Position numbers and translations under genes: made by a program. Positions 31,286-57,566 of a stretch of DNA of 64,000 nucleotides are shown here, piece after piece. The notes beneath the pieces are model-generated. The model saw nothing but the letters and a program-made list of their open reading frames with translations. It had not been told where the DNA came from and did not search any database. Source of the DNA: Blepharisma japonicum (lineage: Eukaryota; Ciliophora; Heterotrichea; Heterotrichida; Blepharismidae); contig CATKHK010000003.1 of assembly GCA_949751835.1 (NCBI GenBank), forward strand, positions 682,001 to 746,000, given 5' to 3'. The stretch's first letter is position 1. The number at the start of each line of letters is the position of its first letter.

Positions 31286-31558
31286 CTAATTCCCATATAA
31301 GAAAGAATATGAAGCAGATAAAGAACTCCTTCCAGCTGACGATAAACTGGATCTGCTGCTTCGTGTAAATTTTTCTATCATTCTTTGCTTATACAAGGGG
31401 TTTGAATTAATATCAAGCAAAGGTGCATTTTTAGCTTTTTCTATCCACATTTTCTTTTTGATTTCTTGTCTTTCGTTGTCGCAAGGTGAAATTTGCATAT
31501 GCACATCCAAGACATAAGGCAAAATTTTTTCCTTTCCTTTGCAGCTGCATGAGCCCAT
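31286..31558 (-). CDS. Array family member 1 (90 aa)
   Basis: Starts MGSCSCKGKEK: Gly2 for myristoylation, Cys4 and Cys6 for palmitoylation, then basic residues. The core KAKNAPLLDINSNPLYKQR sits at about residues 43-61, after KKKMW. The tail is Ser-rich (SSRSSLSSAGRSSLSAS), a likely phosphorylation region. A Met nine residues upstream is in frame but would hide the acylation signal, so the MGSC start is preferred. It is the array end nearest the PH/YiiX gene. Confidence 0.85.
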   Translation of the reverse strand: MGSCSCKGKEKILPYVLDVHMQISPCDNERQEIKKKMWIEKAKNAPLLDINSNPLYKQRMIEKFTRSSRSSLSSAGRSSLSASYSFLYGN

Positions 31559-32369
31559 TTTTGATTTTATTTTTAATCCAATCAAAAAAGTATTAAGCGT
31601 AGCTTGCGTTTTAATTAATAAGAATGTTTTATTATTTTATCTAACTAATACTAAAATTGATAATTAATTACGCTTCTATCCTCTTTAAATTGCATATTCT
31701 CTACTTTTTAGATAATTTTCCTAAAAATTTACTTTCAAAAAATAAGCTTTGAAGAGAAAAAAGGCATGATTAAAACAGTTATATAAAATTCATGGCAAAA
31801 TAATGTGAAAATCTTATAAAATTTAATATAGTTCAAGCCAAGGTCGAAAATTCAAAATCAGCAGATAATACGTCGAGAACTGATAGAAAATCTGGAAAAT
31901 CTTGAAAAATAAATTTGATTATGTAGTATTTTTGACTCTGTATTTATAAAAATGTTTAAAAATAGATTTTTAGATTAATGTAGACTGGACTTCAATAAAT
32001 TATCAAACTCCATTTATTTCTATCCATATTCAATAATTTTCATTTCTTCAAATTATTATTTTAGAAGGATTCATAACAAAACTTAATCTATACTAAATTG
32101 ATTTGATAATTTAAAGCCTTTCAATTTTACAATCTTCTTTAATTGCTAATTTAAATATGATTAATTAACCTTAATGGTGTTTAATATGCGATCTAAATTT
32201 TTTTTCTTAATAATCTGATTGTAATACATGAATAATAATCTTAATTATCACATTAATCTTGCTTTTAAATTTTGTATAATTAATATTCATCATTCACTTT
32301 GGCTGAAGGTCTATTTGAAACTAAACTAGTCATTATAATATAAATATTTCCTATTTCATAATGGCCTTC

Positions 32370-32639
32370 TTAGAAGACACCTATTGAAGATGAAGTGCGA
32401 GCACATATTAGTTGCCGGTCCGAGCCAAAGTTTGCAATGTTATGCAGTTCTTGGTTTCTTAAAGCCCGCTTAGTGTATAACTCGCTAGAATTTATATTAA
32501 GACGAGGTGCTTTCTCAGCTTTTTTCTTTCATAATTTTCTTTTATTTTCTTTCAGACTGCTCTCAGGAGAGAGCAATCCTGTACTATATTTCATATTTGG
32601 AACAGCCTTAACTTTATTAGCACAAATGCAGGAACCCAT
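32370..32639 (-). CDS. Array family member 2 (89 aa)
   Basis: MGSCICAN start. A TGA-coded Trp at residue 37 lies in KRKLWKKK, just before the core KAEKAPRLNINSSELYTKR (residues 40-58). The tail is mixed polar with a second Cys. With TGA read as stop the gene would be cut before its core, so it is easy to miss in automated calls. It ends at TAA 32370-32372. Confidence 0.85.
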
Positions 32640-33559
32640 GATTTGATTTATAGCTCTTTTACTAATAAGTAATTCGAGTAAATGGATATGTTAAGCATTT
32701 TCTAGAAAAGAAAAAAAAGAATCTGAGGCCTTTATGAATGAGATATCAGAAAATTTATGAGGAAAGGTCAAGAAAAACCATAGCAGCCATCACATAGAGT
32801 ATATCGTGGATATTTTTTAATTTTTTAATTTTTTATTCAAGATAATAAGTTTTGCCTTTGAACATAAAATAATTTTATGTTAAGAAGTCTAGATTTGAGG
32901 AAAGAAGAACAATTAATTGAATAGATAGCGTGATTTCAATTTTAATCTTATCTTTTTAAAATGGTTACATGTTTGAAATAAATCCATTTATAAGGGTCAA
33001 TATTTTACAAAATAGATATGATCTAATAAATTGGAAATTTTTTAAAATTGATACAGGAAAAGATTAATAAACATATGTGAAAAAAATAAAGCTCAGATTG
33101 ATTTTTCAACAATTTTTGAATCTTTGTAAAAATTTTTATTATAAAATTTATTATTTTAGATTATATAATAAAAGCTTAAATAAAATATTGACTATAATAT
33201 TTATGCTTGAAGACAACACAAATAAACTTATCAAAATTTCCCTAGCTTATCTCTTCCGATCAATTATTAAGTATAACTTTCATCTTTTTAAAAAATTTAA
33301 TTTCTCCAACTTTAAATGCTACAGCAAGCTTTTTAATTTAAAATTATTCTTTTCCTTTCAATTTTTAAAGCTCAGCAAATAAAATCTCGAATATTAACAC
33401 GCAGAACTTAATGACAAAAAAAATTTGCCATTTCAAAGGAATTGGTTTTGTATATTTGAGGAGATTATTGGAAATAATTAAAATTTGGATTCAAACTAAA
33501 CTAGAGTAATTTAATTATGATAAAAACGGTCTTAAAAACATTTAAAACTTATCTTAATT

Positions 33560-33847
33560 TTAATATAAAATTTGTCTTAATCTTCCAGGAGTGCATTGCC
33601 CATAATTCAAAGGAGAATAGATTTCCGTCAAACTGCTTTGAGTCTGTGGCCTTTCCTGAATTCTCTGCTTTCTATTCAAAAATAAAGAATTTTCACCAAT
33701 TTTTAATATTGGTGCCTTTTCTGCTTTTGAATTCCAGAATCTAGAAACTTCTTTTATTTTTAGTTTCTCATAGTCAGAAAGACTTTTCTCTGTGTGATTC
33801 TCAATTATACATGTGTTTCTTCGGCTTGTGTTGATGCATGAACCCAT
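33560..33847 (-). CDS. Array family member 3 (95 aa)
   Basis: MGSCINTSRRNTC start. The core KAEKAPILKIGENSLFLNR has Phe for Tyr at the LY position. A Trp two residues before the core's Ser-Lys keeps the aromatic anchor. The tail is Gln/Ser-rich. It is one of the more diverged members. Confidence 0.82.
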   Translation of the reverse strand: MGSCINTSRRNTCIIENHTEKSLSDYEKLKIKEVSRFWNSKAEKAPILKIGENSLFLNRKQRIQERPQTQSSLTEIYSPLNYGQCTPGRLRQILY

Positions 33848-35198
33848 TTTATTACCACAATTTTTAGTAAACTTACATGAAATTCACTATTTCAGAATGT
33901 TTGGAAAGAAATGAAATTTTAAACTAAAAAGTTTTTTAATTAAAACTATTCGATTTTAAATAAATAATGACTTTTAAGCTAATTGAGTAGTGCTAGAACT
34001 TTTCGTTAATATATTTTATGCCGATGATGGCAATTGTTTAAATAAGAACTCCAATCAAGGCAAATAAGGTTATTTTTGTGTTAAGAAATTAATCTAACTT
34101 TGAAATTATAAGGAATCATCAAAATCAGGCCAAAATTTTTAAAATTGGTTAAATATGTAGTTTACTGAGCATTGGCTAGATTTCTCGAATGCACAATAAG
34201 GCTGAAAATTTAATAAAGAGATGCTAACCTGAATAAAAATAATAAGCTTTATCAAAAAATTGATGTAAAAATCGCTTATGTAAGCGTTACATAAATATTT
34301 ACTTTTGTGCTGTTTTGCCTTATTAGACTTCCATATTCAAAAGAAAACTGGACTAGCCCAACTTTAAAGTTAAAAAGAAATTAGTCAAAAAAGGATTTTA
34401 TATCACTTGCCACTTATATGAGCTTATAATTTTGGCTAAAACAAAAAAATTATCAATTAATTAGTCAACAAAAAAAAACTTTAAAACTACTCTTTATGAA
34501 ATATCGACTATAATTGTTTTAATATTTTGATGTTTTTGCTCACAGAATATGTTCAAAAATCACCATATAAGTAAGTTTTCCAATAGTAATTTGGCTTTAT
34601 TGGGATTTTTTAGAATTTTTATTAAATAATTTTGTTTACGTTTATTAGGAAAATTAAATAACTATTAATTTAATTCTACTAGTTATCGCATATTTAGCTT
34701 AATAAACTATTGCAATAGACCAAGATCTAATTACTTTATAATGAGTATAAACTATTTCTGCAGTGAATAATTATTTTTTTATAAATTCCATACTAAGTTT
34801 TGTGATATTTCTGATTTTAAAATCTTTATGGGTAACTATATGCAAAGAAGGAGACATATGCATATGTATTTTTTATAACAGTCAAAATTTTTCAGATAAA
34901 AGAAAATCCAAATATTTTTAAGAGAATAAAATAGCTATACAATGCTTTTAAGTCGAATAGCTTTGCATAACTTGGATTTCCATTCAGACATCTATAAAAT
35001 ATTTGCAATTCCTGTAAATTGAAAATTAGTTTTATTTAATTTTAAAAAAAAAGGTATTTTATTATGTTTTAAATTGCGATTTTTTGGAGCTTAACTATAT
35101 TTATATAAAATTTTACATCTAAACATATTAAATCTTTAATAGATAAGGATAAATATTTCCATTAATTTATAAATTTCAGGAATCTAAATTGATTTGGA
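33848..35198. other. Array spacer
   Basis: AT-rich; nothing recognisable. Confidence 0.4.
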
Positions 35199-35432
35199 CT
35201 ATGGGAGGGATCATTGTGCAGTACTCATTTTCAAGCTTCTATAACAGGATTGCCGTTTAATATATAGCGGATTCATTTCAATATTAAGCTGGGGAGCATT
35301 TTTTGCTTTAGCCAACCAAAAGAGTCTTCTCCGATCATTATTTTTTCATCAATATCCCGTAGCTAATTTATCATTTCTGCTTATAGGATATTGTGATAAT
35401 TTAACTTTTCTACATCCGAAACACAAACCCAT
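35199..35432 (-). CDS. Array family member 4 (77 aa)
   Basis: MGLCFGC start. The core KAKNAPQLNIEMNPLYIKR follows RRRLFWLA. Three TGA codons (two adjacent Trp near residue 28, one near the C-terminus) are needed for the frame, which ends at TAG 35199-35201. It is the same length as member 5 and close in sequence (LFWLAKA, NAPQLNIE, a Trp-Ser-Leu end), so these two arose by a later local duplication of a unit of about 1.6 kb. Confidence 0.82.
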
Positions 35433-36814
35433 AATTTTTAATTATTGATGAGATATAATAATAAATTTCTAGAAAATATGAACTATGCCATTACATAGGG
35501 CCGATAATATTTTACAAATGAAGCAGAAAATTTAAATTAATTAAGAGATGTTTTATCATGAGTAACCAAATTTCAAGTTACAAACCTAAAGATTGATTAT
35601 TATCATATTAAAATTGATTACGCTTAAATACAATATAAAGAGGGAGAATTATAAAAAAAATAAAACTTAAGAGAATAAAAATTTTGATTGATATTCTTCT
35701 GTGATTTTTTGCATTATATCTTAGAAAAACTGCACATTTTATTAGATAAATTTAAAAATATTCATCTAATATCTGGATTATAAGTAATCACTAATTCAAA
35801 ATATCATATATAGCGTTAAATATAACACAAAAAATATCTAAAAGTCATTAGGCTTAAAACCATTTAAGCAGAAACGCTAATAACTATAAATTTCGATATT
35901 ATCATTCAAGCCTTTCAGGGTGACTGGGCCTATAACTCAAATTTTTGGTTCAACCAAAAGCATAAATAAACGATTCAAAATTCTCATTCAATTTCTCCAA
36001 GCTCTCTATTCACTGTTTGTTATGATAAGGTTTTCAAAAGATATTAAAAACTCTTTAGTAATGTGGCTTCAAGGATCTATTTGATAATAAATTTTATTAC
36101 TGATTAAAGCATCATAAAGATCGTGAACATTACTTTGGTTTTGATAGTTCACCTTTTTTTAGAACTATTTAATATATTAAGAAATTTCTTCATTAGCTAG
36201 TGAAATGCATTTTGAGTTAATTTCTTTTTTCTTGAGAACTATTTGAAATGTTTTTAAAACTAGCATCAATGATCTTTTCATGAGCATTAAGAGAATAGAA
36301 TTTTATAATGATGGATCATGAAGAATCCATTCTGAAATAATAAATGAAATTAAAATAAAAACTTTAAGATTAATTTATTAGATAAATTTAATAATTCTAT
36401 TATATAAACTTCTCTTAAATGTATTTTATAATATTAATAATCATTGACACAGTGTCATGAAAGGAAATAACTTTTTTCGATATTTTTTAATAATCTAACT
36501 AATAATTTTTAGCTAATAAGAAAGATAGTAATACATTAATATTAATGTTTTAAATATATAAAGCAACTTGAGCTTAATTTTAAGGCGTAACTTCAGTAGC
36601 CTACCAAAATGTCTATAAAATATTCATAATTTCAATTCAAAATTTTCTTATATAGAATTTTAAGGAAAATATAATGCATTTAACTTTTAATGTTCTGAAA
36701 TTTGGCCTCTTCATCGAATTTTATAAATAGGTGCTAAGATTTTTAAACTCAAGGCAAGAGAAAAGGTAATTTATGATTTAATTTATTAAGTTAGAAATCC
36801 TAAATCTACTCCGA
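35433..36814. other. Array spacer
   Basis: AT-rich; nothing recognisable apart from weak similarity of the flanks of members 4 and 5. Confidence 0.4.
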
Positions 36815-37048
36815 TTAAGAGAGAGATCATTGTCCAGTGCTTAATTTAGAGCTTCTGAATAAAGATTTCCGCCTAATATATAGCTGGCTTTCCTCAATAT
36901 TAAGCTGAGGAGCATTTCTTGCTTTGGCTAATCAAAAGAGTCTTCTCTTTTCTTTATTAAGTCTTCAAAAATTTATGGTAAGTTTTTCGTTTTTGTTTCC
37001 TTGATTAGATAATAATTTAACTTTGCTGATACCGCAACACAAACCCAT
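36815..37048 (-). CDS. Array family member 5 (77 aa)
   Basis: MGLCCGISKVKL start, with core KARNAPQLNIEESQLYIRR after RRLFWLA. Three TGA-coded Trp. It ends at TAA 36815-36817. It is the closest relative of member 4. The linker differs much more than the core, suggesting that the core is the constrained part. Confidence 0.82.
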
Positions 37049-39291: not shown

Positions 39292-39552
39292 TTAATGAAC
39301 AGATAAGCTACCACTTGATGCTGTTTTATCTATCTGCATACTGGTATCAACTGTTATAGCATGATGATTTAACCCTCGTTTTGTGTACAATGTGCTGGAC
39401 TCTATATTCAGCACAGGGGCTCTTTCTGCTTTCATCCTCCAAATGATATTCTTTTGGTTCTTCAAGTCCTTTTCAGCAAATGATATCAGTCTGTGTTCTT
39501 TCCGGAGTTTTTGAGACATTTTGCCATTGCAAGTGCAAACGCATACACCCAT
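39292..39552 (-). CDS. Array family member 6 (86 aa)
   Basis: MGVCVCTCNGK start with three candidate palmitoylation cysteines (4, 6, 8). The core KAERAPVLNIESSTLYTKR follows KNIIWRM. The tail holds His and Ser. An in-frame upstream Met (39627) would add 25 hydrophobic residues; I prefer MGVC because every other member starts at the MG[x]C site. Confidence 0.84.
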   Translation of the reverse strand: MGVCVCTCNGKMSQKLRKEHRLISFAEKDLKNQKNIIWRMKAERAPVLNIESSTLYTKRGLNHHAITVDTSMQIDKTASSGSLSVH

Positions 39553-39922
39553 TTTTAATTTATAACTAATTATTAAGTAAGTATTGTAAGTAAATGAAAT
39601 AAATGGAATTGTGGAACAAAAAAACAATTAAACGTCAATGAATTTTTGGATTATAATAAGCAGAAAGTCTAATAATGATTAAATCCTGGCATTATCATTC
39701 AGGCTTTATCATAGTAATTTTTGTATATCTTATATTGCATTTTTGCCAACATATGTTATTAAAATTTATCAAAAAAATTCTTAGATTCCCAAGATTAAGG
39801 TAATTTTGGAAAGCGCTATAAAGAATTCAAATTAATTCCTATATATAAAGGGCAATTTATATTTATAAATTGATATGGATTTGATTGATAATTAAAGAAA
39901 GTAATAAAATTATTTAATATTT

Positions 39923-40264
39923 TTAATTTAAGTCGGTTTGAAATTCATTGATTTCATTTGCTGTGCAAGTTGATGGCGAAACTCCGCTTGTTAATGGTTC
40001 ATTTGTAACATTTACAATTTCATCTTCTTCTATGAAAATACTTAGTTTAGGTGCACTTCTTCGGATTCTTTTAATATATAGATGACTGTTTTCTATTCGC
40101 AGCCGCGGAACATACATCATTTTTTTGATGTTAACGAGATAATTTTGAGCGACTAACTCTCTTTGCATTTCAGCTGTAGCATTTAGCTTTTGGGAGGGAA
40201 TACTTGCAGGAACTGGAATTTTGTAATTATTGTGATGATGATTGATCCCGAAGCACGATCCCAT
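39923..40264 (-). CDS. Array family member 7 (113 aa, divergent)
   Basis: The longest member. MGSCFGINHHHNN start. The core is altered: KKMMYVPRLRIENSHLYIKR lacks the KA...A part but keeps P-x-L-x-I and LYxxR. The tail is acidic and long (about 40 residues) rather than short and basic. Either specialised or on the way to losing the family function. Confidence 0.8.
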   Translation of the reverse strand: MGSCFGINHHHNNYKIPVPASIPSQKLNATAEMQRELVAQNYLVNIKKMMYVPRLRIENSHLYIKRIRRSAPKLSIFIEEDEIVNVTNEPLTSGVSPSTCTANEINEFQTDLN

Positions 40265-41293: not shown

Positions 41294-41557
41294 TTAAATT
41301 GGACTTGCAAGTGTAGCTGACTGGTCACCTGAGGAAGAAGATCCATCCATTGTAGGAAATGATTTTTGACTAACAAATTGGCATCTCTCTAGTCGATGAA
41401 TAAATAAAGGATTTATTCTTATATTCAGCTGAGGAGCTATTTTTGCTTTGTTTTTCCACAATTTCCTCTTTAATTGGGCTATATTTTCTTGATCATCACC
41501 CTTATGCCCTTGAGGACACGTAGATGAGACTTTGAAAGTGCCACAGCAAGATCCCAT
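41294..41557 (-). CDS. Array family member 8 (87 aa)
   Basis: MGSCCGTF start. The core KAKIAPQLNIRINPLFIHR has Phe for Tyr and follows KRKLWKN. The tail has a Ser cluster (DGSSSSGDQSAT). Ends at TAA 41294-41296. Confidence 0.85.
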   Translation of the reverse strand: MGSCCGTFKVSSTCPQGHKGDDQENIAQLKRKLWKNKAKIAPQLNIRINPLFIHRLERCQFVSQKSFPTMDGSSSSGDQSATLASPI

Positions 41558-42088
41558 TTTAGTAATTTATAAGAAATTTTCAGCATTAAAAATATCTCCA
41601 CTATTAATAAAATAGATTAATATTTGTTAAAAATTTAACTGATTATTTGTAAAATTATAAAGGCGAAAATAATAAAACATATCTTTATAAGTCCTATGAT
41701 GTCACATTTTTGTTTTCATAAATCCATATTATGTCAGCAAAATCAGTAAACCACATACAAAAAACTTTGAGATTTTCAAATTTGATTATTGAATTGGCAA
41801 AAATCCAAAAAATAAATAATAAATTCAATATTTATTTATTTATTTGAGAATCTTTGTGTTGGCTTAATTTCGCTATATTTATAATGACCTCTTTATTAAG
41901 ATGAGAGAAAAGAGATCGTTTAATTATATTTTTCAAAATTTGGCGTTAATGATGTAGAAATCCTTTGTAAAAATATTTTATTACAAATTCTAGCCAGTTC
42001 TTTTAATAAACTTATAGTAGCACATCCCTAAATTATGATATTAAAAGCAATATTTTTCCTTAAATTTTTGAAATTAATTAACTTGAAA
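41558..42088. other. Array spacer
   Basis: AT-rich; nothing recognisable. Confidence 0.4.
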
Positions 42089-42352
42089 TTATAGTGTACT
42101 ATCTATAGTAGAATTCGCATCATTTAGTTCAGAATTCTGCTTTTTGATCAGTGGCTTAGCCACTCTTTTTTTGTATAACTTGCTTGCATTTATATTCAGC
42201 TTTGGCGCACAAGCAGCCTTTACATCGTAAATTTTCCTTTTTTGTATTTTTATTCGTGCTTCGGCATCTAAAAATAGGCCTGTCTTAAATCTATCTTGTC
42301 TTCGAATTGGGATATCAATATTTTTGAAATCTCTTCCACAGCAAGAGCCCAT
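42089..42352 (-). CDS. Array family member 9 (87 aa)
   Basis: MGSCCGRDFK start. The core KAACAPKLNINASKLYKKR follows KRKIYDV, where Tyr replaces the usual Trp anchor. The tail is polar and begins with more basic residues. Ends at TAA 42089-42091. Confidence 0.85.
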   Translation of the reverse strand: MGSCCGRDFKNIDIPIRRQDRFKTGLFLDAEARIKIQKRKIYDVKAACAPKLNINASKLYKKRVAKPLIKKQNSELNDANSTIDSTL

Positions 42353-42824: not shown

Positions 42825-43118
42825 TTAAATTAAGACTGATGATACACTAGACTTCGTTGAATAAACTTTATCAAACTCTATATCTCTTGTGTTTTGTTGA
42901 CAAATTTGCCTCAATGCTTCTCTAGACTTATAAAGGCTGCTATCTTGAATGTGCAGCTTAGGAGCATTTTCAGCCTTCTTTTTGTAAATTTTTGTTTTTT
43001 GCTTATGCAAACTTTGGTTATTAAGTAAAATTGTTATCTTTACTTGTTTGTACTCTTTCTTATGCTGTAAATCTCGAGAGTTCTTTCTATTGATAGCTAT
43101 AAAATTGCAAGCACCCAT
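42825..43118 (-). CDS. Array family member 10 (97 aa)
   Basis: MGACNFIAINRK start; an in-frame Met six codons upstream would mask the acylation site. The core KAENAPKLHIQDSSLYKSR follows KTKIYKK, with a Tyr anchor as in member 9, its neighbour. Ends at TAA 42825-42827. Confidence 0.84.
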   Translation of the reverse strand: MGACNFIAINRKNSRDLQHKKEYKQVKITILLNNQSLHKQKTKIYKKKAENAPKLHIQDSSLYKSREALRQICQQNTRDIEFDKVYSTKSSVSSVLI

Positions 43119-44355: not shown

Positions 44356-46500
44356 CTACATAGTAATAAAATTAGCAACTGCGTTTAAAATGATGTCCGG
44401 GTTTATTGGCTTAGTCATATAAAATTTCATCCCAGATGAATAACATTTAATCACATTTTCATCGGACAAATTCGCAGTAACACCTACAATATTCGGCATT
44501 GAGCTTATTTTTCTATCTTGATACAGATTTTTTATTTTTTTGGAGACTTCCCATCCATCTAGACTTGGCATAACGCAGTCCATTATTATTAATTTTACAG
44601 GCTTTTTTCTATCATCTTGCCACAATATTTGTTTTATTGCTTGCTTTCCACTTAAAGCTTCAATATATGGGATATTTATTTTTCTTAAAAATGACGCAAT
44701 TACTTCTCTACTGAAATCACTATCATCAACTATAAGGACTTGAGGATAAGTGCTTTTATTATAAATTTTCTGCGGAAAAGTGTTTATAGAGTCAGCTTCA
44801 AAAACTGGATTTTCAAAACTTTGGTCGAGGGAATTAAAAATTGAGCATCCTTCAAATAAATGTAAGGTAAAATAAAAAGTAGAGCCTTGAAATAATGATG
44901 ATGAGATATGAACACCACTTCCTCCAAGCTTTTGGACTAGTATTTTTGAAATATGCAAACCAAGCTCTCCTGACTGTGAATAGTTGCAGCAGTAGCCTAC
45001 TGAAGGCGAATTGAGCTGTTTAAGCCTTTCTTTTGGGATACCAATCCCTGTATCTGAAACAATAATTTTAAGCCCATTATTTCTAGTCAATAAAGCGCAA
45101 AGTTCGATTTGTCCTTTGTTGGTAAATCTAAATAAAAATTACTTCAATGCATTGCTCAAGAGATTTATTATTATTTGGCAAAATCTTTGAGAGTCTGTAT
45201 TCACAATTTCTGGAATGCCGGGGTCTATTCTTAAAGACAGTCTTATATTTTTCTTCTGAGCCAATATATTATATAAATTGTAGCAGCCTCTCAATATAGT
45301 CCGAATATTAAATTCTTGCTTGTGTAACTTAAACTCGTCTTGAATAATCTGAGAAAAATCAAGCAAATTACTAAGAAAATGAGTTAAAATGTTTGTAAAA
45401 ATTCTTATTTGAACTAGCTTTCCCAAGAGCACGCTTCCTAACCTATCTCCATGATCGTCAAAAATTTGGTCTACTAATTTTAATATTTCAGTCATTGGAT
45501 TTTTAATTTCATCTGAAATCGACCCCAAAATCAGTGTTTTGTATTTATTTTGTGCAGAAGTCTGCTCAAGCTCGATAATCTGATTTGCATTGCTAGCACT
45601 CACTAAAAGTGCTTCTTGGTCTTTCCACTGAATTTTTTTGGCTTTTCATTCCAAATTAATATCACCAATTTTTACGATCCCTAGGGATAATTCATTATTA
45701 AGTGGTAAAGACGATAAAGAGTGCAAGGATTCAATTAAAAACTCTGACGTAGAGTACTGATTTTCAAATTTTTTGCCTTCGACATACTTCAAGCCTCTTA
45801 ATTTAGCTACGACGTTTTCTAATGATGCTCCAACGTAGAGTATCATTTTATCGTTTATAAAAGTTGGAATAAATTGGTCATTGAACACAATTAATCCATC
45901 TGGGAAAGCTTGTAAAATTACTGCAAGGCTTTTTTCTGCTTGCTCTAATTTTCGTCTAAATGCATATCGGTCAAAGCTTTTTGATCTTCTATAAGATTCT
46001 TCATAAATATGAATAAAAATTATAAGGAATGGCCCATAAATTTCATTAGGAGAGGATAATAAGATTTGGCCTGATAAAAGCTTCCAGCCATGCCATAAAA
46101 ATACATGTTTCCCTATTAAAAATAAGAGAAATCATAAATTTTTGATAAAATATTTTTGAATGCACAGAACCATTGTTGACTCTATTATAATAATTGCCTT
46201 ATTTTCTTCGTGCAGAGATAAGGAAATATAATAAAGTCCGAAGTTCATAATTTCTGTCGCAAAAATTACAATTACTGATGAGAATGGATTATATTTTATC
46301 ACAATTGCCCTGACCATAATAATAGAAAGCACAATAGCTATGGTCATAAGAATGCTTGGAATCGTTCACACAAAGTCAAAGCCTAAATAAAATCCTAAAA
46401 TCAGTTTGTATATCGTTGAAGTGATACCAATAAAATAGGCTGCATTTTTAAAAGCTGTGACGGAGATCTCAAATTCTTCTTTATACCAATGATCGAACAT
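44356..46500 (-). CDS. Hybrid histidine kinase with receiver domain; His box reads Asp; one 15-nt intron
   Basis: 709 aa; exons are 45143-46500 and 44356-45127. About five membrane helices (residues about 15-135) are followed by a linker and a dimerisation/HisKA-like helix. Its H-box reads LGSISDEIKNPM, so Asp330 stands where the phospho-acceptor His is expected (SHEIRTP in most kinases). The ATP domain keeps the N-box NLLSNALKFT and DTGIGIP (Asp478). The C-terminal receiver is complete: Asp587/588, acceptor Asp636 (LIIMDC), Thr670 and Lys692. Several TGA codons are Trp. It ends at TAG 44356-44358. It may be a pseudokinase scaffold or signal via its receiver only. It lies inside the small-gene array, on the same strand. 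Confidence 0.88.
45128..45142 (-). other. 15-nt intron in the histidine kinase gene
   Basis: GTAATTTTTATTTAG. Retention gives an in-frame TAA directly after NALK; removal joins NALK to FTNKG and so restores the N-box consensus NALKFT. The family consensus at the junction makes this the best supported intron in the window. Confidence 0.92.
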
Positions 46501-46913
46501 ATTTATTACTTTATAAAAAAAAGAAATTTCAGCTTGTAAAATATATTTATTTTCAGAAAATGTTGAGAATTTATATAAATCTAGGCTAGTTTTAAATTCA
46601 TAAATAAATTTTTTTTAGTTATAATGCATAAATACTTTCCTTTGCAGTAATTATTTCATTCAAAAATTCTACACAAATTAAAGATTTGAATACGTTGAAG
46701 ATATTAATCAATGTTAATTAAAATGTGCTAATTTTTATTTTATTAATGTGGATAAATTAAATAAAGTCTTTGCAAATCAAATGGGAAATGAATTAACTAA
46801 AGTATTTGAAATCAAGATATCAATATACTTTAATAAGTCTGAATTTGTTTATTTTGACAGAATTTTGATATAATAATAAAATTGTGCCGTTTGAATAGCT
46901 TTCTTAGAGAATT
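46501..46913. other. AT-rich intergenic region
   Basis: Upstream of the kinase gene and of the piggyBac remnant. Nothing else recognisable. Confidence 0.4.
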
Positions 46914-47427
46914 TTACCTCTTCATCCTACCAATCCAGAAACTACAACTACAATCACTAAAAAAAGAGGTAAAGGTGAAAAAATACAATTCTAGAATTTA
47001 TAGACCACTACAGATACTTTATGAGGGGCATTGATATTTTCGATCAAAGTATTAATCATTATTCATATCCTCATAGAACAAACAAATTATGAAAGAATTG
47101 CTTTTTTTATTTTCTTGAGGTAGCACTCAATAACTCATATATTCTTTATAAAAATTACATTATTTCATTGAGTAAAAATTATTTATCATATTATAAATTT
47201 CGTATTGAAATTGCAGTCTCTTTGTGTGAGAAAAGTAAAGTTAGAAGGGAAAATAAAATTATAGCAAGTCAAGTAATTTCAGGCATGCATTTGATAATAA
47301 AATTGAAAAACCAAAAGAATTCTTCTTCTTTTATCATCAAAAAGGAAATAAATCAAGAACTCCTTATATTTGTTCAGAATGCAAGATATATCTTCATCCT
47401 AAATGCTTTTATAATATTCATAAATAG
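46914..47427 (+). pseudogene. piggyBac-type transposase remnant (C-terminal part)
   Basis: About 510 bp of a DDE_Tnp_1_7 (piggyBac) transposase, 3' end only. IDHYRYFMRGIDIFDQSIN corresponds to the conserved YNxxMGGVDxxDQ block, which holds the third catalytic Asp. It is followed by KLWKNCFFYFLEVALNNSYI, typical of the family's next helices, and by a C-terminal Cys/His zinc region (PYICSECKIYLHPKCF). At least two frameshifts separate these pieces, and the first two catalytic Asp regions are missing. Ciliates domesticated piggyBac enzymes for genome rearrangement, but this copy is broken, so it is a fossil transposon or a dead paralogue. No terminal repeats were recognised. Confidence 0.85.
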
Positions 47428-47456
47428 CTAAATTAAAATGATTAATTTCTAAGGAG

Positions 47457-47875
47457 AAAAGAATGATAAAATTTTTTGCAGCTGAAAGGGGAACCAGCTA
47501 TGCCAAGCAAACAACGACCGGGAGTGCACAGTTTCTGAGGCTTGGTCATTGATATTTAGTAGGTGTAGGGTTTACATCACTAGAATTCTCGGTAGAAGAA
47601 AGATCTATACGCTCAATAGTTAAGCAATAGCTTGGCCAACGAAATCATCATGGCTACCAGCGTCTGACTAGTGAAGTCTAGATAGAAAGCTTGAACATCC
47701 AGTCAAGATTGCCCGTGATATCAATCCGTTATATCACTAGTTGGGCGAATGAGGGAGAGATTAACTTCTCTACTCTGTGGAGGCAACGATGCGAAACAAG
47801 CCATATAATAACATAAGTTTAAGACAGAATTTTGATAAAATACTTTTCTTATGTTTAAAATATGTAACAAGGAGA
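47457..47875 (+). other. GC-elevated anonymous block next to the piggyBac remnant
   Basis: Clearly less AT-rich than the surroundings. One plus-strand frame (47457-47816) has only two TAG stops in 120 codons; other frames are also partly open. Local inverted repeats exist: GTGATAT (47715-47721) with ATATCAC (47731-47737), CCAAGC (47503-47508) with GCTTGG (47540-47545), and AGAGA/TCTCT near 47756-47771. Candidates are a structured RNA, an eroded coding segment or part of the transposon. I cannot decide. Confidence 0.3.
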
Positions 47876-48022
47876 AAAACAAGATTTTACAGACACCAGG
47901 AGTCCTATAATATATTCTACTGACGAGAAAAGAGGTAATTAATTTTATTTTCTGATAATCGAATATGGAGTTTGGAGCTTAAATTGAAAGCAACAAGGAT
48001 AAGATTAGATTAGATAATAAAA

Positions 48023-48286
48023 TTATTTAGATTCAATTGGACAGCAATAACTACTTACATCTTTACACCCTTCTTTCAGCCTGCTTATGCGTTTACTATA
48101 CAAGCTGTTTTTGTCCAAATCCAGTTTCGGGGCATGGACTGCTTTTTTAATTCTGATTAAATTCATCTGTACTAAGAATTCATTCTTGGGTGTGGCTTGA
48201 ATGTTGCCATTAGTTTCTTTTAAATGATCATCAAGATCTGCAATTGTTCGAAAGCTTTTTTTTTGCTTAGTGTAGCACAAGCCCAT
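48023..48286 (-). CDS. Array family member 11 (87 aa)
   Basis: MGLCYTKQKKSF start. The core KAVHAPKLDLDKNSLYSKR follows LIRIK, with a Cys-containing tail (CKD...CCP). It shares its N-terminal half (YTKxKKSFxxI...LDDxL) with members 14-16, which defines a subfamily at this end of the array. First member beyond the kinase and the piggyBac remnant. Confidence 0.85.
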   Translation of the reverse strand: MGLCYTKQKKSFRTIADLDDHLKETNGNIQATPKNEFLVQMNLIRIKKAVHAPKLDLDKNSLYSKRISRLKEGCKDVSSYCCPIESK

Positions 48287-49489
48287 TTATTTTTTTAAGT
48301 ATAAACTAAACCGTTTAATGTCGTTGGAAAAAAATGATACAAGCATGATTTTTTATTGATTTCAATCAAATTTGACTCGTATTAGTTTTTTTGCTTAGTA
48401 ATCTAATTCCCTAGTTATTATTTAAAGAAAATTGCTAAAACTTATTTTAAAGAAATTATTTTTAAAGAAATAAATAGAATAATCAAGGCTTAAGCTTATA
48501 ATCAATCTATACTTTTTAGGATTTTTGACCAAATCAAATTCTGACATTTATAAGCATGATATACACAAAAATGGCTTGTTTCTTTTTTGTTTCAGAATTC
48601 ATGTTAATGGATTTAAGTTTAATGAGTTTAGATTTCTAATAAATTATTTTATAAAAATTTCGAATAAAGATAAAAATGCTGATTTTGAATTAGCGAGGAT
48701 GTTTTTGATTTTTCATCAGAACTAATATAGTAAAAATTAGCCTTAAAATTAATTTTATTTTATGGGATATTATTTAGTTTGCTCTATTCTAGTTAAAATA
48801 AAGCTATTGATTGATTTAGAACAAAAATTATAAAAATAGAGTTGTTAATAAGGCGATCTGTCGGTTTCTGACTCAATAAAATTTTTGACTAATAAGATTA
48901 CCTATTGAGCAAGAATTAAGAATCTTGATATTAAAGTTATTAATCAATAGCTATTTGAATACCTACATTCGAACTAATCAGGTTATTTATTAAGAAAAAT
49001 TTTAGTCGCATTTTCTTACAATCTAGTCTGATTCGAAAAATTCGTAATGCCATTTTCAAATTCTTTATTGATTTTTTAAGAAAATCTATTTTTCAATATA
49101 ACAGTTCTATTTATCTCTGATATAAAAAGAATGCCTTCTCAAATATTTAAGCTATATTATTTTTTCTTCTTAAAAGCATCAATACCTTACAAAAAAACAG
49201 CATTATTATTTCTTTTTGAATTTCAATTCACTCCAGCCTTTTAATATTTTTATGATAATTTTAAATTTAGCATTATTTTATTATGTCCATACTTCTAAAT
49301 CGGATTCTGATCAGACTTAGTTTCATCTTTATTCAAAGCATTTTAAAAACTTAAAAATAATAAAATCATTAACAATCCCTATTACCTATTCCTCCGAAAA
49401 ATTCAAAATAACTTAAATTCATAACTTTATTATTACAAAACATTATTTAAAATAATTTTGATTAATTTCTTAAAATTTATCTTACAGCT
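48287..49489. other. Array spacer
   Basis: AT-rich; nothing recognisable. Confidence 0.4.
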
Positions 49490-49759
49490 TTAACACGATG
49501 AATTTGTTGAGGTTGATTGCTCAAGATTACTGCAAGATTGGTACATTTCGTTCTGTCATCGAGATGCTCTTCTTTGATATAAATCATTTTCATTGATATT
49601 AAGCAGTGGAGCTTCCAAAGCTTTTTTCAAATATAGTCCTTTTTGTTGACCTTCGATTTTTAGCTTCTCATAAGTATTTTCGTTTTCATTAGAGACCTTG
49701 CAAGGGCAAATTTTTTTGTTTTGAGAAGATTTTGACTTAGATCCGTAGCACGCGCCCAT
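49490..49759 (-). CDS. Array family member 12 (89 aa)
   Basis: MGACYGSKSKSS start. The core KALEAPLLNINENDLYQRR follows KGLYLK. TGA at 49556-49558 is Trp and opens a 22-residue tail (QNEMYQSCSNLEQSTSTNSS then Cys). Without the recoded Trp the tail would be lost. Member 17 shares the same tail, confirming it as real. Ends at TAA 49490-49492. Confidence 0.86.
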
Positions 49760-50497
49760 AATAAATAAAATTTATTATTTTTACTTGCTGAAACCGTAGA
49801 GGAAAGTTCAAAAATGGTCTTTTTAAAGAAAATTTCAAAATAAAAATTTTCCTTTTAAGTATCACTATCTAAGTTTAAAAATAATGTCTAGCTCATTTAA
49901 ATATATGCTTTTTTTTTTACTTTCGAATATCAATTATTGTGACGTGCTGAATTTTTATCAGAGTAAGGTATAAAGCTATACATCATATTAGGTTAAGTAT
50001 TTTTATATTTGGTAAATTGTTTTGAATATAGATAAAACTACTTCTGATAATTGTAAATTTTCTTACTGCATGATTTAAAGAGATAAATTACACTGCAACT
50101 ATCATAATCCTGCAATAAATAAATGGCTTTGTTTTCATAAGTTGGCAAATCATAATAAAGCCATTGAAATGGATGATCAAGTGGATATAATACAAAATGA
50201 AATCGAAGTCTTAATTATTTCTTATTCCACATCATATTTTATGCCATTTAATTATTTAAAAATTATAAGTAAATTAATAGAATTTAATTAACTATCAAAT
50301 TTCAAAAAGACAATAATATAGGGTAAAATAATAGAAATTTGTTTTCTTACTCTTCCTATATTAATAGCATCATTACTCAATTAATTGACTTATAAAATAT
50401 ATAATGACATTAAAGAGTCTTATTAAAATTAGCAATCTTTAGCATTCTAAAGTATTATTTAATTAATATTTTAATAAATTCCTTAAATTACTTAGAT
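49760..50497. other. Array spacer
   Basis: AT-rich. The part next to member 12 resembles the flank of the pseudogene at 50.5 kb, so the duplicated unit was larger than the gene. Confidence 0.45.
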
Positions 50498-50760
50498 TTA
50501 GCACGATGGATTTGTGGAGGTTGATTGCTCAAGGTTACTACAAGATTGATACATTTCGCTCTCTCATCGAGATGCTCTTCTTTTGATATAAATCATTTTC
50601 ATTAATATGAAGTAGTGGAACTTCCTAAGCTGTTTTCAATCATAGTGTTTCTGTTGACCTCAATTTAAACTTCTCATAAATTTTTTATTTCTATCAGAGC
50701 ACATATAAAGATAAATTTTCTTTTTCAAAGCATTTGGCTTAGATCCATAGCGCTTGCCAT
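50498..50760 (-). pseudogene. Array family member 13, pseudogene of the member 12 type
   Basis: Nearly the whole length aligns with member 12 at DNA level, including the tail region (TATCAATCTTGTAGTAACCT and the stop codon). The start region has lost a base so that MGAC becomes ATGGCAAGC out of frame, and several frameshifts and stops follow in the linker and core. This is a dead host gene copy showing birth-and-death turnover of the array. Confidence 0.88.
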
Positions 50761-51610
50761 AAAAAAATACAATTTATTAATTTTACTTGTAGAAACTGCA
50801 AAGGCAAGTCAAATGCAGGATTTGAAAAATCAGCATTTTTCTTAAAAGAATTGCTATAAGAAATGAAAATTAACTTTAGCATAAATTCTTTATTTTTCTT
50901 GCTTTTGAATTACAATTATTCTGAATAAACTTAGTCTATATCAGGCTGTGCTCATTAAGCCATGCACCATATTAAGCGAATCATTATATTTTTATATTGA
51001 AAACTAATCGAGAACAGATTAATCAATAATTTATATAATTAATAAATATTTGTCTTAAGTTAACAAGTCATAAAATAAATTTTAAATGAAATCTCCGCTC
51101 ATTAATATGATTAAAATGAAAGAAAAATGATTATAATTTAAAATTAGATCGAAATCTTAGCTATAATGTTTTGAATGTTTTATTCAAAACTAATAAAAAG
51201 TAAATTAATTTGAAATAGGATCTTAATGATGTGTTTGACGTTTAAATTAATTATTGAAATTCATTTGAAAAAAGAAAGCATAGACTTCGAAAGCAATATT
51301 CGTAAAGGAGTACATTTGATAATATAAGTAACAAAAATTTAAAATCGAAAATCTATTATTTTAATAAAGCAATGAGCTTTACTATGGAATTAATAAATTT
51401 TTTAAATTATGCGGATATAAAAGATGTTTTAAAGTGTCCAATAAATGAAGTTGTTCGTGATTATAAAAACAAAACATGTTTTTATGCATAAAAACCCCTT
51501 TTCTTCTGGCAGGCAAAATTAATTATTTTCGATAACTCATGGGAGTTAAGTAAAAATGAGAAGAGCAAGCCACAAAAATTTTTTAAAATTTAATTATTTA
51601 AAATTTATAA
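50761..51610. other. Array spacer
   Basis: AT-rich; nothing recognisable. Confidence 0.4.
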
Positions 51611-51880
51611 CTACATCAAGGCATCACAAGAGATACTGATGCAAGAGTTTACTATTTCAGAGCTTTCTCTTAGCCTTGCCAAGCGTTTATTGTACAAGCT
51701 GTTTTCGTTGAGTGCCAAAATGGGAGCATTGGCTGCCTTTTTAACTCTTATTACGCTTCATTGCTTCTTTAAATCGTTTTTCGAATTATCCCTGGAGCTG
51801 CTGTGAGTTTGATTTAATTGGTCATCAACAGCCACGATTGCTCTCAAGCTTTTTTTATCAGCAGAGTAGCAAGAACCCAT
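51611..51880 (-). CDS. Array family member 14 (89 aa)
   Basis: MGSCYSADKKSL start. A TGA-coded Trp precedes SVIRV, then the core KAANAPILALNENSLYNKR and LARL. The tail contains two Cys. Linker Ser cluster HSSSRDNS. Ends at TAG 51611-51613. Belongs with members 11, 15 and 16. Confidence 0.84.
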
Positions 51881-53652
51881 TTATTTTTAAGTATAAATAA
51901 TCTGTTTTAATGGTGTTGATAAGTTCTTATCAAAATGATTGGCGCGATTTTGTAATGTTTGATGGGGCTAATTATATTTTAACTTTAATCATTAGTCGCG
52001 ATAATAAGACAATCAGTAAAAATAAATGACTAAGTAGTTTGTTGATGTAATGTAATGGATTAATCAAAATGGACTTTTCTGTTTCTGTCAAAAAATTAAT
52101 ATTTAAAATTTTTGTCATAAAATTTTCGTTTTTCCAGCTTAGAAGATTTTATTAATTTTAGAATTTTTGCTAAAATTTTAATAAATTTCATAAATTTACG
52201 TTCTTAAAAATAGAAATTATTTAAGTTAAATTCAATTTGAGCAGTAAAATTAATTTCGCTCTTTAGAAAAAGGAAGCTCAGCTCTTAGCATATATAGTTT
52301 ACAGTTTGGCGGAAATTCGACTTAATTTGAATTAATAAAGGGTAAAATATTATAACTTGATAAACCGAAATGCTCTTTTTGACATATTTAGTCTAGAATT
52401 TTTTGAAGGATATCGGGATATTTTATCAATATATTTCAATAAAGATATAGTCAAATTTTCGTTTACATATCCCTTGTTGAAGATGTAAAGGCTAGGACTT
52501 TAAGTTAGCCTATTAAACAATAAAAATATCTATCTATTGTAGAGAAAGAGTAGCCTTTAGAAAAGCAATTGCAACCTATTCGAAATGAGCCTAAGTTTTC
52601 TCTCTTTAGGACTAGTCATACAACTCAAGATCGGAGATTATTTGTGCTTTATCACCTGAGCAGATGCTCACCTCGAGAAAAAAAAGCCCTTACAGCAGGG
52701 ATTTAAAGGTGTGATGAGTTTGGACCCAAAAAATGTAATTTTGGCAAATCTAAGGGAATAGTTAAAACACTACTCCAACTAAGCATTAATAATCATAATC
52801 ATATTTAACAGAAAATTAGATATCATTTTGATTTAGATGATAACTCACTAATTTTCTTAAAATATAAAAAACAATTTAATATTGTAGAATTACTCTTTAA
52901 ATATTGAAGCTTTAAATTAACTTTTTTAAAGATTATACATAAATTTTAATCTTGTACAAATAAATTTATAAAAGTTTAAAAATAATACAAATTTTGCTTA
53001 TAAATAGCTAGAATATTAGTTTTCATATCATATTTAAATTATCAACAATAGAGTAATTTATATATTGGAGCATTGGTTGATTAAGTTAAACTAATTAAAG
53101 ATTGGAGTTCATTGTTTTATGATTTGGGTAAACTTTTATGGTATGCCAGCGTTTCAGCTAGAGATAGTTCTGCTTCAACTTTCTAGCTTAATTCTTAATG
53201 CTGTCTCTAAACCTTTAAGATAGCAATTTAGGGACTAAGGTCTACTGCTTTAGTAACTGAAGCCTCACCTTAGATAAAATCATTAGCTAGTATAGGCATT
53301 AGCTATACCTTTGTCATAGGTATTGAGAAAATAGCATTTTTCATCAATGCCTATCAGAATGCACATAGTCTTCATTGCTACGCAAGTGAGGTAAAGCACA
53401 ATGATCAATACTCTTACTCCTAAAGGTCTCAAACCATGAATATTTCAGGGAGAAGATGGATCTGTGATTACAATTTATTTGGATCGGGGAGCATAGTTAG
53501 TAGATCTTTTTAGACCAATGCCTACCCAAACATATAAATAGAGATTTTATTCTTATAAAAACTTCTACTTGAAATTTTATAAAATTATTTATTTCGTTCA
53601 GTTAAATCATTTAAGAACCTAATAAAGAACTTATCCTAGCACTTATCTTTTG
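51881..53652. other. Array spacer with stop-rich, GC-richer stretches at 52480-52745 and 53100-53520
   Basis: Short protein-like pieces appear in both stretches (for example EIICALSPEQMLTSRKKSPY near 52640-52700), but stops are as frequent as chance predicts. They may be heavily decayed genes. Unidentified. Confidence 0.25.
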
Positions 53653-53874
53653 TTAGGCTTCTCCTAGCCTTGCCAAACGCTTGCTGTATAATACACTCTC
53701 ATTGATAGCTAAAATAGGAGCATGAGCTGCCTTTTTAACCCTGATTGAGTTTCATTGCATTTTTATATCATTTTGGGGATTATCCTTGCAGTAGCTGTGA
53801 GTGTCTTTTAATTGATCGTCAAGGACTGAAATTGCTTTAAAACTTTTTTTATGCTTAGTGTAACAAGAACCCAT
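53653..53874 (-). CDS. Array family member 15 (73 aa, short tail)
   Basis: MGSCYTKHKKSF start, linker HSYCKDNPQND, TGA-coded Trp before NSIRV, then the core KAAHAPILAINESVLYSKR and LARLGEA. A TAA at 53653-53655 ends it about 10-16 residues earlier than its relatives. Sequence after the stop still resembles their tails (QKIS-like), so the stop is probably a recent truncation that leaves the core intact. Confidence 0.82.
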
Positions 53875-55794
53875 ATATATATTTAAGTATGAACTATCTA
53901 TTTAATGGAGTTGAAAGTTTATTGGGAATTTAATAGCCCAATATTGAAAAGTTTATTTTTAAGGTTTGAGTTAGTAAAGATAATCAGAAGTTTATTTAAA
54001 ACTCGAAAAATTGGATATAGCTACTCTTGAATTGCCTAGGATTTGAAATATAGCAGCAAAAAAGCATAAGGAATATGATTATTCACTTTTTCGCAATTTG
54101 GCCTTCTCTTCTTGCTGAGAAGTGCAGTTTTGTATATTTATAGAGATCTGGAATGCCTCTAAGGAAACTTTAATATTTATAAACATTTTAATCTAAAAAT
54201 AAAATTTATTCTAGAAGTTATCAATCAAGGTATTAAAAATGGTCTTTTTATCTCAGAATTTACAATTTTTGAACTATTATTACCTTAAGGATTTTATTTG
54301 GTCTTATTGATCTTCTAAATATTCTTTGGTTTTAAGTTTAAACGCATTTCTTGAAAATTTCTCATAAAAATTTTTACTCTAGTTAAATTTAAACTTTTTT
54401 ATTTTTATCAAATATCATTTCATCCTAAGGACTTATTATTCACAAATAGCTTTTACATTTATATTAATTCTCAAATGCTCAAGAATTATTTTTGAATTAT
54501 TTTCGCATCAGAGGTGCAAATTTTTTACAGTTCATTTAAAAACGAAATAATATTTTGTATCAGTCTAATTTGCAAATATTTAGTGTTCTAACAAAATCAT
54601 AAAAAATTAGTTTTCAAATAAAAATAAATTTCAATATAATCCTTCTAAGCATGAAGACACATTGCAGCATCCTACGCTTTATATAGTTTATCCATCAAAC
54701 TAATTTTATTAAGCTATCGCTGCTTGGATTTAGTTTTATCATTATGCATGCTGCTTTTATACCTTTTTCTACCTGAAAGCTAATATTTAGGTTTTGAATA
54801 ATTTTAGGTTACAAAAATTTATTATAATAGCAATAAAATGATAACAGAGTTATATGATAAGTTAAATTATATACTGGGCATTATAGTTCCTGCTTCTGAT
54901 GGCACCTTCCACAATAGGATAACGTCAGATATTGCCTTGCAGGATGGCAGATTATTTTAGATACTTCTACCATGGCATGAACCTGGGCCAATCACCCGAT
55001 TTCTTGGCAGAGGATTTTTCTAATTGATCCACTCCATGCAAATTTTTCCGAGAAATTCATTTCCAACTTAAGTCTTAGACCATATTGTGCCATCCTAACA
55101 ACTTGCTTTAATCGAACCTTTTAAAAATAGCACTCTTGAAAATTGCAAATCTATTCAAAGGAAAAACCCAACATCTTAATGCGATTTTTAATATGCCACC
55201 TAACAACCTAAGCCAGGGTGTTGCTGATAGAAAATGCAAAAGTTTACTTGAGCTGTGCTAATATTTAGTTAAAAATATTGCTGAACCTCTCACTTCAAGG
55301 CTAGCCCAACAATTGGCAGTTCTTTACATCAAAAAAGCATTTCTGGCTATTCATAAGTCACTTGGAACTGTAAGGACGGATCGTTCATCTGGCTATTTTA
55401 TTATATTGTTATTTGATAATAAATAAGCTATAGGCTGAATCTTTAATCTACTTATATATCAAGTCATTTATTGATAAAATCATAGCAAAGAATGTTGATT
55501 TGATGAATAAGCGATAAAATGATTATATCAAATTTAAGAAAGTTGCAACAACAAAAAAAAAAGAAAAGAGGCTTTTTTTATTGACAGATTTTCACATACA
55601 TAAAGTATCTTTATGATAAAGTAAATGGGTATTAAAAGTATAGCATATATTCTTGATATTTTAGCAGTGTGAATATTCTTTTCTGTCGAGAATAAATTAG
55701 ATTTATTTTCTGGCAACTTAAATGGAGTTATCGAACTAAATTATCAAAGCAAACTTTATAATTATACAAATTAATCACTTAGTTTAGTTACCAA
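53875..55794. other. Array spacer with GC-elevated coding-like remnant at 54870-55430
   Basis: The 54870-55430 block is much less AT-rich than its flanks and reads protein-like on the plus strand in two frames (for example TSRLAQQLAVLYIKKAFLAI near 55285-55350), with several stops. It is an eroded protein gene or element that I cannot identify. The rest of the spacer is AT-rich and empty. Confidence 0.35.
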
Positions 55795-56043
55795 TTAAGC
55801 ATAGCAGAAGGAGATAATCTTTTGGGAGGCTACTCCAAGCCTAGTTAAACGCCTTTTGTATAAGATGCTTTCATTAATAGATAAAATAGGAGCGTAGGCT
55901 GCCTTTTTAACTCTTATTAGCTGTATTGCAGTTTCAAAAGATATTTTAGGATCATCTTTGAAGTTACTGTAAGTGTCTCATAATTGATCGTCAAGGTTAA
56001 CTGTTTTAAAACTTTTTTTACTTTTCGTACAGCAAGAACCCAT
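55795..56043 (-). CDS. Array family member 16 (82 aa)
   Basis: MGSCCTKSKKSF start, TGA-coded Trp at residue 22, then QLIRV and the core KAAYAPILSINESILYKRR with LTRLG. The tail QKIISFCYA ends at TAA 55795-55797. Closest to member 15, about 2.2 kb away; members 14, 15 and 16 are spaced at about 2 kb, suggesting duplication of gene plus spacer. Confidence 0.84.
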
Positions 56044-57296
56044 TTATATTTGAGTATGAGCTATCAGTTTAATGGTGCTGAATTTTTCAAAGAAATTTAT
56101 AAGTAATTGATATTAAAATAAAAAGATAAAAACTGGATTAAGGATTCTAAATTGCTTAGGGTTTGAAAAGAAATTTCATTTTTGTTGCAGTTTGTATTAT
56201 TTTCTTAATAAGAAACAAGGCGCTGTTAAGATATTTAGCAGGAAATAAAGCAAAAGATTTATATTAGTAAGGAAATTTATTCTTATTCTCTTCGAAAATA
56301 CAGTAACTTAAAGTTGGGTTTTCAAGAAGTTTGTAGTTTGGGCTTTTTCGCTCATATTAATATTGATAGAGAAATAGATCATTGCTGCTTAGAGTTTTTA
56401 ACCAATTAATATTGATTTATAAGTTATTTCCAAAGTTTAAACGAAAACTTTTTTAAAGATTTATTTTTGTTAATAAATCACACAGAATTTTTGAAATCTG
56501 CAGAATTTTATGTTATCAAAGAAAAAGTTTCAAAAAGTTTTGAATCAGGGTTTAAAAATGGCTTTTTTATATCAGAATTTACAATTTTAGAATATATTAT
56601 TGCCATAATGCTTTTTTTAGTGTTAGTGATATTCTAAATATTTCAAGTTTTGGCTATTTTCTTAAAAATCTTGTAAAAAGGCATTAATTTCTGGTTTCAT
56701 ATTTTATAAATAAAATCAGATTTTTTAAAAAATAATTTTCATTCAATAAAGGACTTTTAAGGCACAAATAGCTTTATATGATATTAATCCATATCTATTC
56801 TAGAAAGGTAACATTTCTTTTTATAATTAGAAATGTAATATTTTTATACCATATTATTTAAAAAATTGAGCTATTTTTCGATAAGTTAACTTACAAAATT
56901 GTTTTGTTTTTAGCAAAAATCTATAAATCTTATTTTTTTAAATATAAATAATTTTCTATATAATTCTTCTAAAGAAGATTTTATGCCTCCCTTATCATTA
57001 AATTTCGATTTTTAAGTCTTTGATATATTTCTCATTGCTAATCTAAAATATATATTATAGGTTGCATAAATGATTTCTTTAGTAAATTTGATGTTCTTTC
57101 CCCATATCCTGATCAGATTTCTTCATTTTTATCCTAAACCTACTTGAAAAAAATCTAAATCAGAAAAATTAGCTTATTTTATTGATACCAATAGATATAT
57201 TTAATAATATAAAACACTGTTATTTAGTTCTATTTTAATAAAGCAATTAATTATTTTTCGGCATTTAATTATGTCATTCAGATCGCATAAGAGAGT
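56044..57296. other. Array spacer
   Basis: AT-rich; nothing recognisable. Confidence 0.4.
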
Positions 57297-57566
57297 TTAG
57301 CAAGATGAATTAGTCAATGTTGATTGTTCAAAATTACTACAAGACTGATAGATCTCATTTTGTCATCGGGATGCTCTTCTTTGGTATAAATAATTTTCGT
57401 TAATATTAAGCTGAGGAGCTTCCAATGCTTTTTTTATGCAAATTCTTTTCTGCTGGCCTTCGACTTTTAGTTTCTCATATATGCTTTCATATTGGTCAAG
57501 GGTTTTTTGAGGACAAATCTTCTTAGTTTGAGAAGTCTTCGACTGAGTTCCATAGCACGCACCCAT
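57297..57566 (-). CDS. Array family member 17 (89 aa)
   Basis: MGACYGTQSKTS start. The core KALEAPQLNINENYLYQRR and the 22-residue tail after a TGA-coded Trp match member 12 closely, although the two lie 7.7 kb apart with other subfamilies between them. That order shows duplication was not strictly tandem. Ends at TAA 57297-57299. Confidence 0.86.

Follow-up and report, generated by a model that had tools for sequence, protein, structure and literature searches.

Sixteen small, predictedly dual-acylated proteins with one shared core in a tandem array of Blepharisma japonicum

What might be the role of a row of small genes whose products share a start signal and one core motif? The question is raised by an array at 31286–57566, on the minus strand, of a 64,000-nucleotide stretch of DNA from Blepharisma japonicum (contig CATKHK010000003.1 of assembly GCA_949751835.1, positions 682,001 to 746,000), which in its full length is referred to here as “the window”. 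A preliminary description of this DNA had listed 16 intact genes and one pseudogene on one strand, encoding proteins of 73–113 amino acids (aa) with MG[SAVL]C starts, and all of these are indeed present: 16 intact open reading frames (ORFs) that start with ATG, plus one decayed copy (Table 1). The proteins begin with MGSC (nine), MGLC (three), MGAC (three) or MGVC (one). In every case, the stretch from the start codon back to the nearest upstream stop codon is free of in-frame ATG. The row of array genes is broken once, by a gene for a hybrid histidine kinase (44356–46500, minus strand). Gaps upstream of array genes span 0.2–2.2 kilobases (kb) and have a G+C content (GC) of 21–28%, as against 31–40% for the genes themselves.

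The 16 proteins form one family by virtue of a shared core. Met1, Gly2 and Cys4 are identical in all members, as are five core positions (numbered here by core column): Lys11, Pro16, Leu18, Leu25 and Arg29. Ala12 and Ala15 are each found in 15 of the 16. Other columns tolerate limited exchange: column 7 is hydrophobic in every member, column 8 is Trp or Tyr in 10/16, column 20 is Ile or Leu, column 23 is only ever Asn or Ser, and column 26 is Tyr or Phe. Alignment column 1 was not used, because at least two rows show a Met there that comes from an alternative start codon being read as such. The claim of a single core thus stands for all 16 proteins with respect to the invariant K, P, L, L and R; the motif as first written, KAxxAPxLxIxxxxLYxxR, is too narrow, being found in 11/16 (g03 and g08 have Phe). 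The form that admits Tyr or Phe, [KR]A..AP.L.I....L[YF]..R, is present in 13/16, the deviants being g07 (KMMYVPRLRI) and g11 and g13 (Leu in place of Ile). Profiles built from the other 15 proteins recover each left-out member with E values (expected numbers of chance matches) from 6e-8 to 8.5e-22, their top non-member matches being fragments of the decayed copy. With the full-family profile, the next match in the whole window has an E value of 2.7, i.e., no 18th member is seen there. At the DNA level, a degenerate pattern written for the core is found in 11/16 genes and averages 0.00 matches over 100 shuffles. Seven members have Trp at core column 8, encoded by TGG in five and by TGA in two; the use of TGA beside TGG at this column supports the reading of TGA as Trp. 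In a family tree, which came with long-branch warnings, 2 of 13 inner branches are starred; the only well-supported groups are g04+g05 and g11+g13+g14+g15, with g12 and g16 being paired by similarity.

Selection on the core and on the remainder of the proteins was compared by a joint codon likelihood, using our own script, for four close pairs (g04/g05, g12/g16, g14/g15 and g11/g13) out of 120 possible pairs. The core comprised 23 columns in these likelihood estimates and 19 columns in counting estimates. The joint ratio of nonsynonymous to synonymous substitution rates (dN/dS, or omega) is 0.10 over the core, far from neutrality, and 0.28 elsewhere. In the joint fit, a single omega for core and rest is rejected (p=2.4e-6), as is neutral change (omega=1) in the rest (p=5e-11). 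Taken pair by pair, core and rest differ in three of the four pairs, and three of the four also reject omega=1 for the rest at the 0.05 level, g14/g15 having p=0.051. Branching order within the g11/g13/g14/g15 clade is not settled by the tree, so two of the four pairs may have a partly common history. Synonymous sites approach saturation; hence, the duplications look old and absolute omega values are rough, and counting estimates (eight pairs) are undefined in several places because of this saturation. The core is under purifying selection, and omega values well below 1 mean that the array members are working protein genes. The preliminary description had seen a family under diversification. 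If this is taken to mean positive selection, the estimates speak against it: linkers and tails are under relaxed constraint. Their strong divergence, likewise claimed, holds between subfamilies, yet these segments do not vary freely, since the 25-codon tail of g12/g16 is about as constrained as the core (dN of 0.05 and 0.045, respectively, by counting, with saturated synonymous change).

The second constant feature is the N-terminus. Gly2 and Cys4 are present in all 16 proteins, against a background of change at residues 3 and 5 and in the linker. A Gly at position 2 after Met1, with a Cys nearby, is what N-myristoyltransferase and membrane palmitoyltransferases require. In 15/16 members, residue 6 is small or Asn (C, G, S, T or N), and the same number match the myristoylation pattern (PROSITE PS00008: Gly2 after Met1, with permitted residues at 3 and 6), the misfit being g10 with Phe6. 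Half of the proteins (8/16) have an extra Cys within residues 5–8. The proteins are basic, with a calculated isoelectric point (pI) of 8.8–10.8 and a net charge of +3.5 to +11.7 in 15/16; g07 is close to neutral (pI 7.8, charge +0.8). Dual acylation, with myristate on Gly2 and palmitate on Cys4, is a well-supported prediction from sequence, in agreement with the SH4-type signal proposed earlier. Known SH4-type proteins (Src kinases, FRS2 and LAMTOR1) are alike in their MG start, in having Cys and Lys nearby, and in the order of anchor, linker and effector; unlike them, the array proteins measure only 73–113 aa, and none of the 16 has a Pfam domain match that rises above noise. A possible parallel is offered by proteins of the sub-compartments of the apicomplexan inner membrane complex, which are also small, belong to alveolates and are attached through myristate and palmitate.

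The core is predicted to be a helix-turn-helix module. AlphaFold models of g13 and g02, each made with 16-row alignments, place two helices on either side of a PxLxI turn, and Asn/Ser23 directly precedes the second predicted helix, the position expected of a helix cap. In the ten-residue blocks covering the core (residues 41–70 of g13 and 31–60 of g02), the predicted local distance difference test score (pLDDT) averages 90–97, as against 50–58 at the protein starts and in the last blocks; 29 residues in g13 and 28 in g02 reach 90.

The core is not assigned to any Pfam family or PDB fold. Pfam searches with whole proteins gave nothing above noise (four families, each matched by a single member, the best E value being 0.026), and none of the 16 core segments had a Pfam match. 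Sequence searches of PDB found no family; a profile match to an ATG16L1 chain (E 0.95) was taken as noise. The preliminary description, which knew no named family with this core, is supported by these Pfam and PDB searches. Foldseek comparison of the g13 and g02 models with PDB gave no match at E up to 10, a search limited by the shortness and low global scores of the models. The core DNA pattern matched no stretch in viral contigs, and a g13 protein query of viral contigs gave 21 pattern stretches and no relatives. The eight stretches that the DNA pattern matched in a limited scan of prokaryotic contigs were all judged to be chance matches: none has an MGxC start in the matched frame up to 80 codons upstream, and a stop codon lies within the motif in four and seven codons ahead of it in a fifth (L003); in L002, L007 and L008, the frame is open across the motif. 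In the open-access literature, judged by titles and abstract openings, no title among the matches listed concerns the family.

How could such proteins work? The explanation we favor, to which we give an even chance, is that the family consists of lipid-anchored membrane adaptors with a small helical docking module for one shared partner, or for self-pairing. Met1 would be removed and Gly2 then myristoylated; Cys4 would be palmitoylated, as may be, in half of the members, a Cys at residues 5–8. The acyl groups would hold the mostly basic protein on the cytoplasmic face of a membrane, and a variable linker would join this anchor to a single folded module of ~33 residues, consisting of a basic helix ending in KAxxA, the PxLxI turn with its Asn/Ser helix cap, and a helix starting with LYx[KR]R. 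The module may dock one conserved partner or pair with itself; differences in linkers and tails may tune membrane binding, regulation or further contacts among the paralogues. A fuller version is one that we would sooner bet against than for: that a new module of ~33 residues, forming a helix-turn-helix mini-fold of its own and borne by an acylated anchor, has expanded in heterotrichs into a set of adaptors working in parallel for a single signalling partner at the membrane. Several points weigh against the adaptor explanation. No sequence or structural relative from Pfam, PDB or Foldseek backs a docking role; the predicted template modelling score (pTM) is only 0.35 for g13 and 0.34 for g02; the two models are built from the same 16 sequences and so are not independent; core and rest are not distinguishable in g12/g16 (p=0.34); and short basic helices could bind lipid by themselves.

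This last point leads to an alternative that we consider unlikely, in which the proteins are lipid effectors, i.e., acylated basic proteins that bind acidic lipid of the inner leaflet with no specific protein partner, like the reservoirs formed by MARCKS or GAP43. The positive charge of 15/16 members, the N-terminal acylation signal and the Trp or Tyr at core column 8, within the first helix, in 10/16 would all suit this function; g07, close to neutral, would not, and strict retention of P, L, L and R and of the Asn/Ser cap over near-saturated divergence is more than charge alone needs. Barely credible is the idea that the array is an artefact or dead, made of chance ORFs or unexpressed relics. 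It has on its side one clearly decayed copy, the shortened tail of g14 and the low-GC, gene-poor surroundings, and it is contradicted by omega well below 1, by the leave-one-out profiles and by the core pattern, which averages 0.00 matches in shuffles.

Two further explanations accept a docking role and name the partner. If the core were a PxIxIT docking peptide, the family would hold calcineurin at membranes in the manner of anchoring proteins, which we consider improbable. The expression P[^PG][IVLF][^PG][IVLF][TSHEDQNKR], as printed in PMC5017699, is matched at the homologous site in 15/16 (g03 has Gly in the last place), the residues between P, L and I are free to vary, and only 5.7% of shuffled members match. 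However, descent from one origin makes this a single coincidence of ~6% and not sixteen. Position 3 is Leu in all members, the invariant K, L and R, the near-invariant Ala pair and Tyr26 are left without an account, and AlphaFold shows PxLxI as a turn between helices rather than a free strand. The second calcineurin motif, LxVP, occurs in 1/16. Calcineurin anchoring proteins such as AKAP79 are alike in having PxLxI plus a polar residue at a conserved site and a membrane tether, predicted in our case; they differ from the array proteins, whose core has conserved flanking K, A, A and LYxxR and predicted helices. More doubtful again is a mitogen-activated protein (MAP) kinase docking (D) motif, with K-x4-P-x-L-x-I lying in the kinase groove and MAP kinase being concentrated at the membrane. 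A basic residue followed by alternating hydrophobics would be shared with D-motif scaffolds, whose consensus in general form is theta-x(0-5)-phi-x(1,2)-phi-x-phi (PMC4670726); this reading would explain the invariant Lys, for which PxIxIT has no place. Among shuffled members, 2.0% match the narrower form [RK]-x4-P-x-[LIV]-x-[LIVMF]. Against this, Pro occupies a hydrophobic place in the array core, the Pro that the D-motif class prefers after the last hydrophobic (PMC4670726) is missing, and the extra invariant residues set the core apart from such scaffolds, with LYxxR, Ala12 and Ala15 unaccounted for. Among individual forms of the motif, the MEF2A class (ELM) is matched at the core in 16/16, with Pro as the first hydrophobic, but it is loose, with 30% of shuffled members matching; a generic MAP-kinase pattern is found in 13/16 proteins yet at the core in just 7/16; and the NFAT4, JIP1 and one of two HePTP forms are found in 0/16. 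[ST]P sites occur in 6/16 only. Given shared ancestry, each docking-motif fit counts as a single coincidence, and neither motif explains Ala12, Ala15, Leu25, Tyr26 and Arg29; we therefore treat both as faint leads. Other motifs were set aside: the PP2A-B56 pattern LxxIxE occurs in 5/16, in four of these at the core, and is not conserved across members, and none of HP1 (0/16), RVxF (3/16) and RxxS/T (10/16) is a shared core feature.

Table 1. The array genes and the decayed copy, with coordinates in the window.
Feature	Coordinates	Strand	Length (aa)	Start	Remarks
g01	31286..31558	-	90	MGSC	ORF and core match
g02	32370..32639	-	89	MGSC	ORF and core match; AlphaFold model m756019f97cd7
g03	33560..33847	-	95	MGSC	ORF and core match
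g04	35199..35432	-	77	MGLC	ORF and core match; paired with g05
g05	36815..37048	-	77	MGLC	ORF and core match; paired with g04
g06	39292..39552	-	86	MGVC	ORF and core match
g07	39923..40264	-	113	MGSC	Weakest member by leave-one-out profile (E 6e-8)
g08	41294..41557	-	87	MGSC	ORF and core match
g09	42089..42352	-	87	MGSC	ORF and core match
g10	42825..43118	-	97	MGAC	Phe at residue 6, sole misfit to myristoylation pattern
g11	48023..48286	-	87	MGLC	Subfamily A; Leu in place of core Ile
g12	49490..49759	-	89	MGAC	Subfamily B; ORF and core match
Decayed copy	50498..50758	-			Nearest to g12; reading frame disrupted by several gaps
g13	51611..51880	-	89	MGSC	Subfamily A; AlphaFold model mef1719ed4d5d
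g14	53653..53874	-	73	MGSC	Subfamily A; shorter tail than g15
g15	55795..56043	-	82	MGSC	Subfamily A; ORF and core match
g16	57297..57566	-	89	MGAC	Subfamily B; ORF and core match

The 3' half of the decayed copy is 88–90% identical to g12, in an alignment that needs six gaps of 1–2 bases. The tail of g14 is ~9 residues shorter than that of g15 because a stop codon replaces a sense codon of g15; the lost tail seems to be dispensable or decaying. Noncoding stretches ~0.3–0.6 kb upstream of the starts of these two genes (54180–54360 and 56500–56680, minus strand) share ~82% identity over 116 bases (E 1.7e-24), a level close to that of the coding parts, and have no Rfam match. Candidates for this pair are a promoter element, an unrecognised RNA gene or a remnant of duplication. 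Between array genes, islands of higher GC (0.33 to 0.43) with no clear gene lie at 47400–47800, 52600–52800, 53200–53400 and 54800–55400; the family profile gives no significant hit in them, and they are perhaps decayed genes of another kind. Only ~25% of the array is coding, even with the histidine kinase counted in.

The wider setting is that of a ciliate genome. The window is AT-rich, with a GC of 24–34% in 4-kb steps. The histidine kinase gene contains a 15-base GT...AG intron at 45128–45142, removal of which joins both frames; the C-terminal piece of the product matches HATPase_c and Response_reg, and the N-terminal piece has no Pfam match. The Blepharisma stoltei somatic genome is reported to have 66% AT, introns mostly of 15–16 bp and UGA as Trp (PMC9942806), and it is of a type in which genes are said to be dense and the regions between them short. 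TGA as Trp, together with the 15-nucleotide intron, indicates a heterotrich such as Blepharisma. Rfam gave no match in the window, nor at E up to 1 in 46600–57400, and ARAGORN found no transfer RNA gene in the window. Among the neighbors, a 171-aa protein (2046–2561, minus strand) begins with MGCSEGK, is rich in charged residues and has no Pfam match; judged by its start, it is a second candidate acylated protein, outside the family profile. ABCG-like half transporters form tandem pairs at two places, 17225–21262 and 57794–61726 (minus strand), one copy being an ABC transporter by Pfam and the rest being judged by eye from their translations; one ABC transporter gene of the window, compared with plasmids, gave no match. 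Tandem ADP-ribosylglycohydrolase genes are located at 23221–25869 (minus strand), one assigned by Pfam (E 3e-50) and the second by eye. On the plus strand, 29153–30220 encodes a protein that combines a PH domain with a permuted papain-like amidase (Peptidase_C92), a pairing that is uncommon.

The tandem expansion is probably old, and the family is probably restricted to heterotrich ciliates. Lineage-restricted tandem families are common in ciliates, which limits the surprise of the array. If the family does consist of membrane adaptors with one docking module, its 16 paralogues, with nearly saturated synonymous sites and a constant core, would be a compact natural mutant series for the binding determinants of an unannotated module, and could help to identify the protein that heterotrichs assemble at their membranes.

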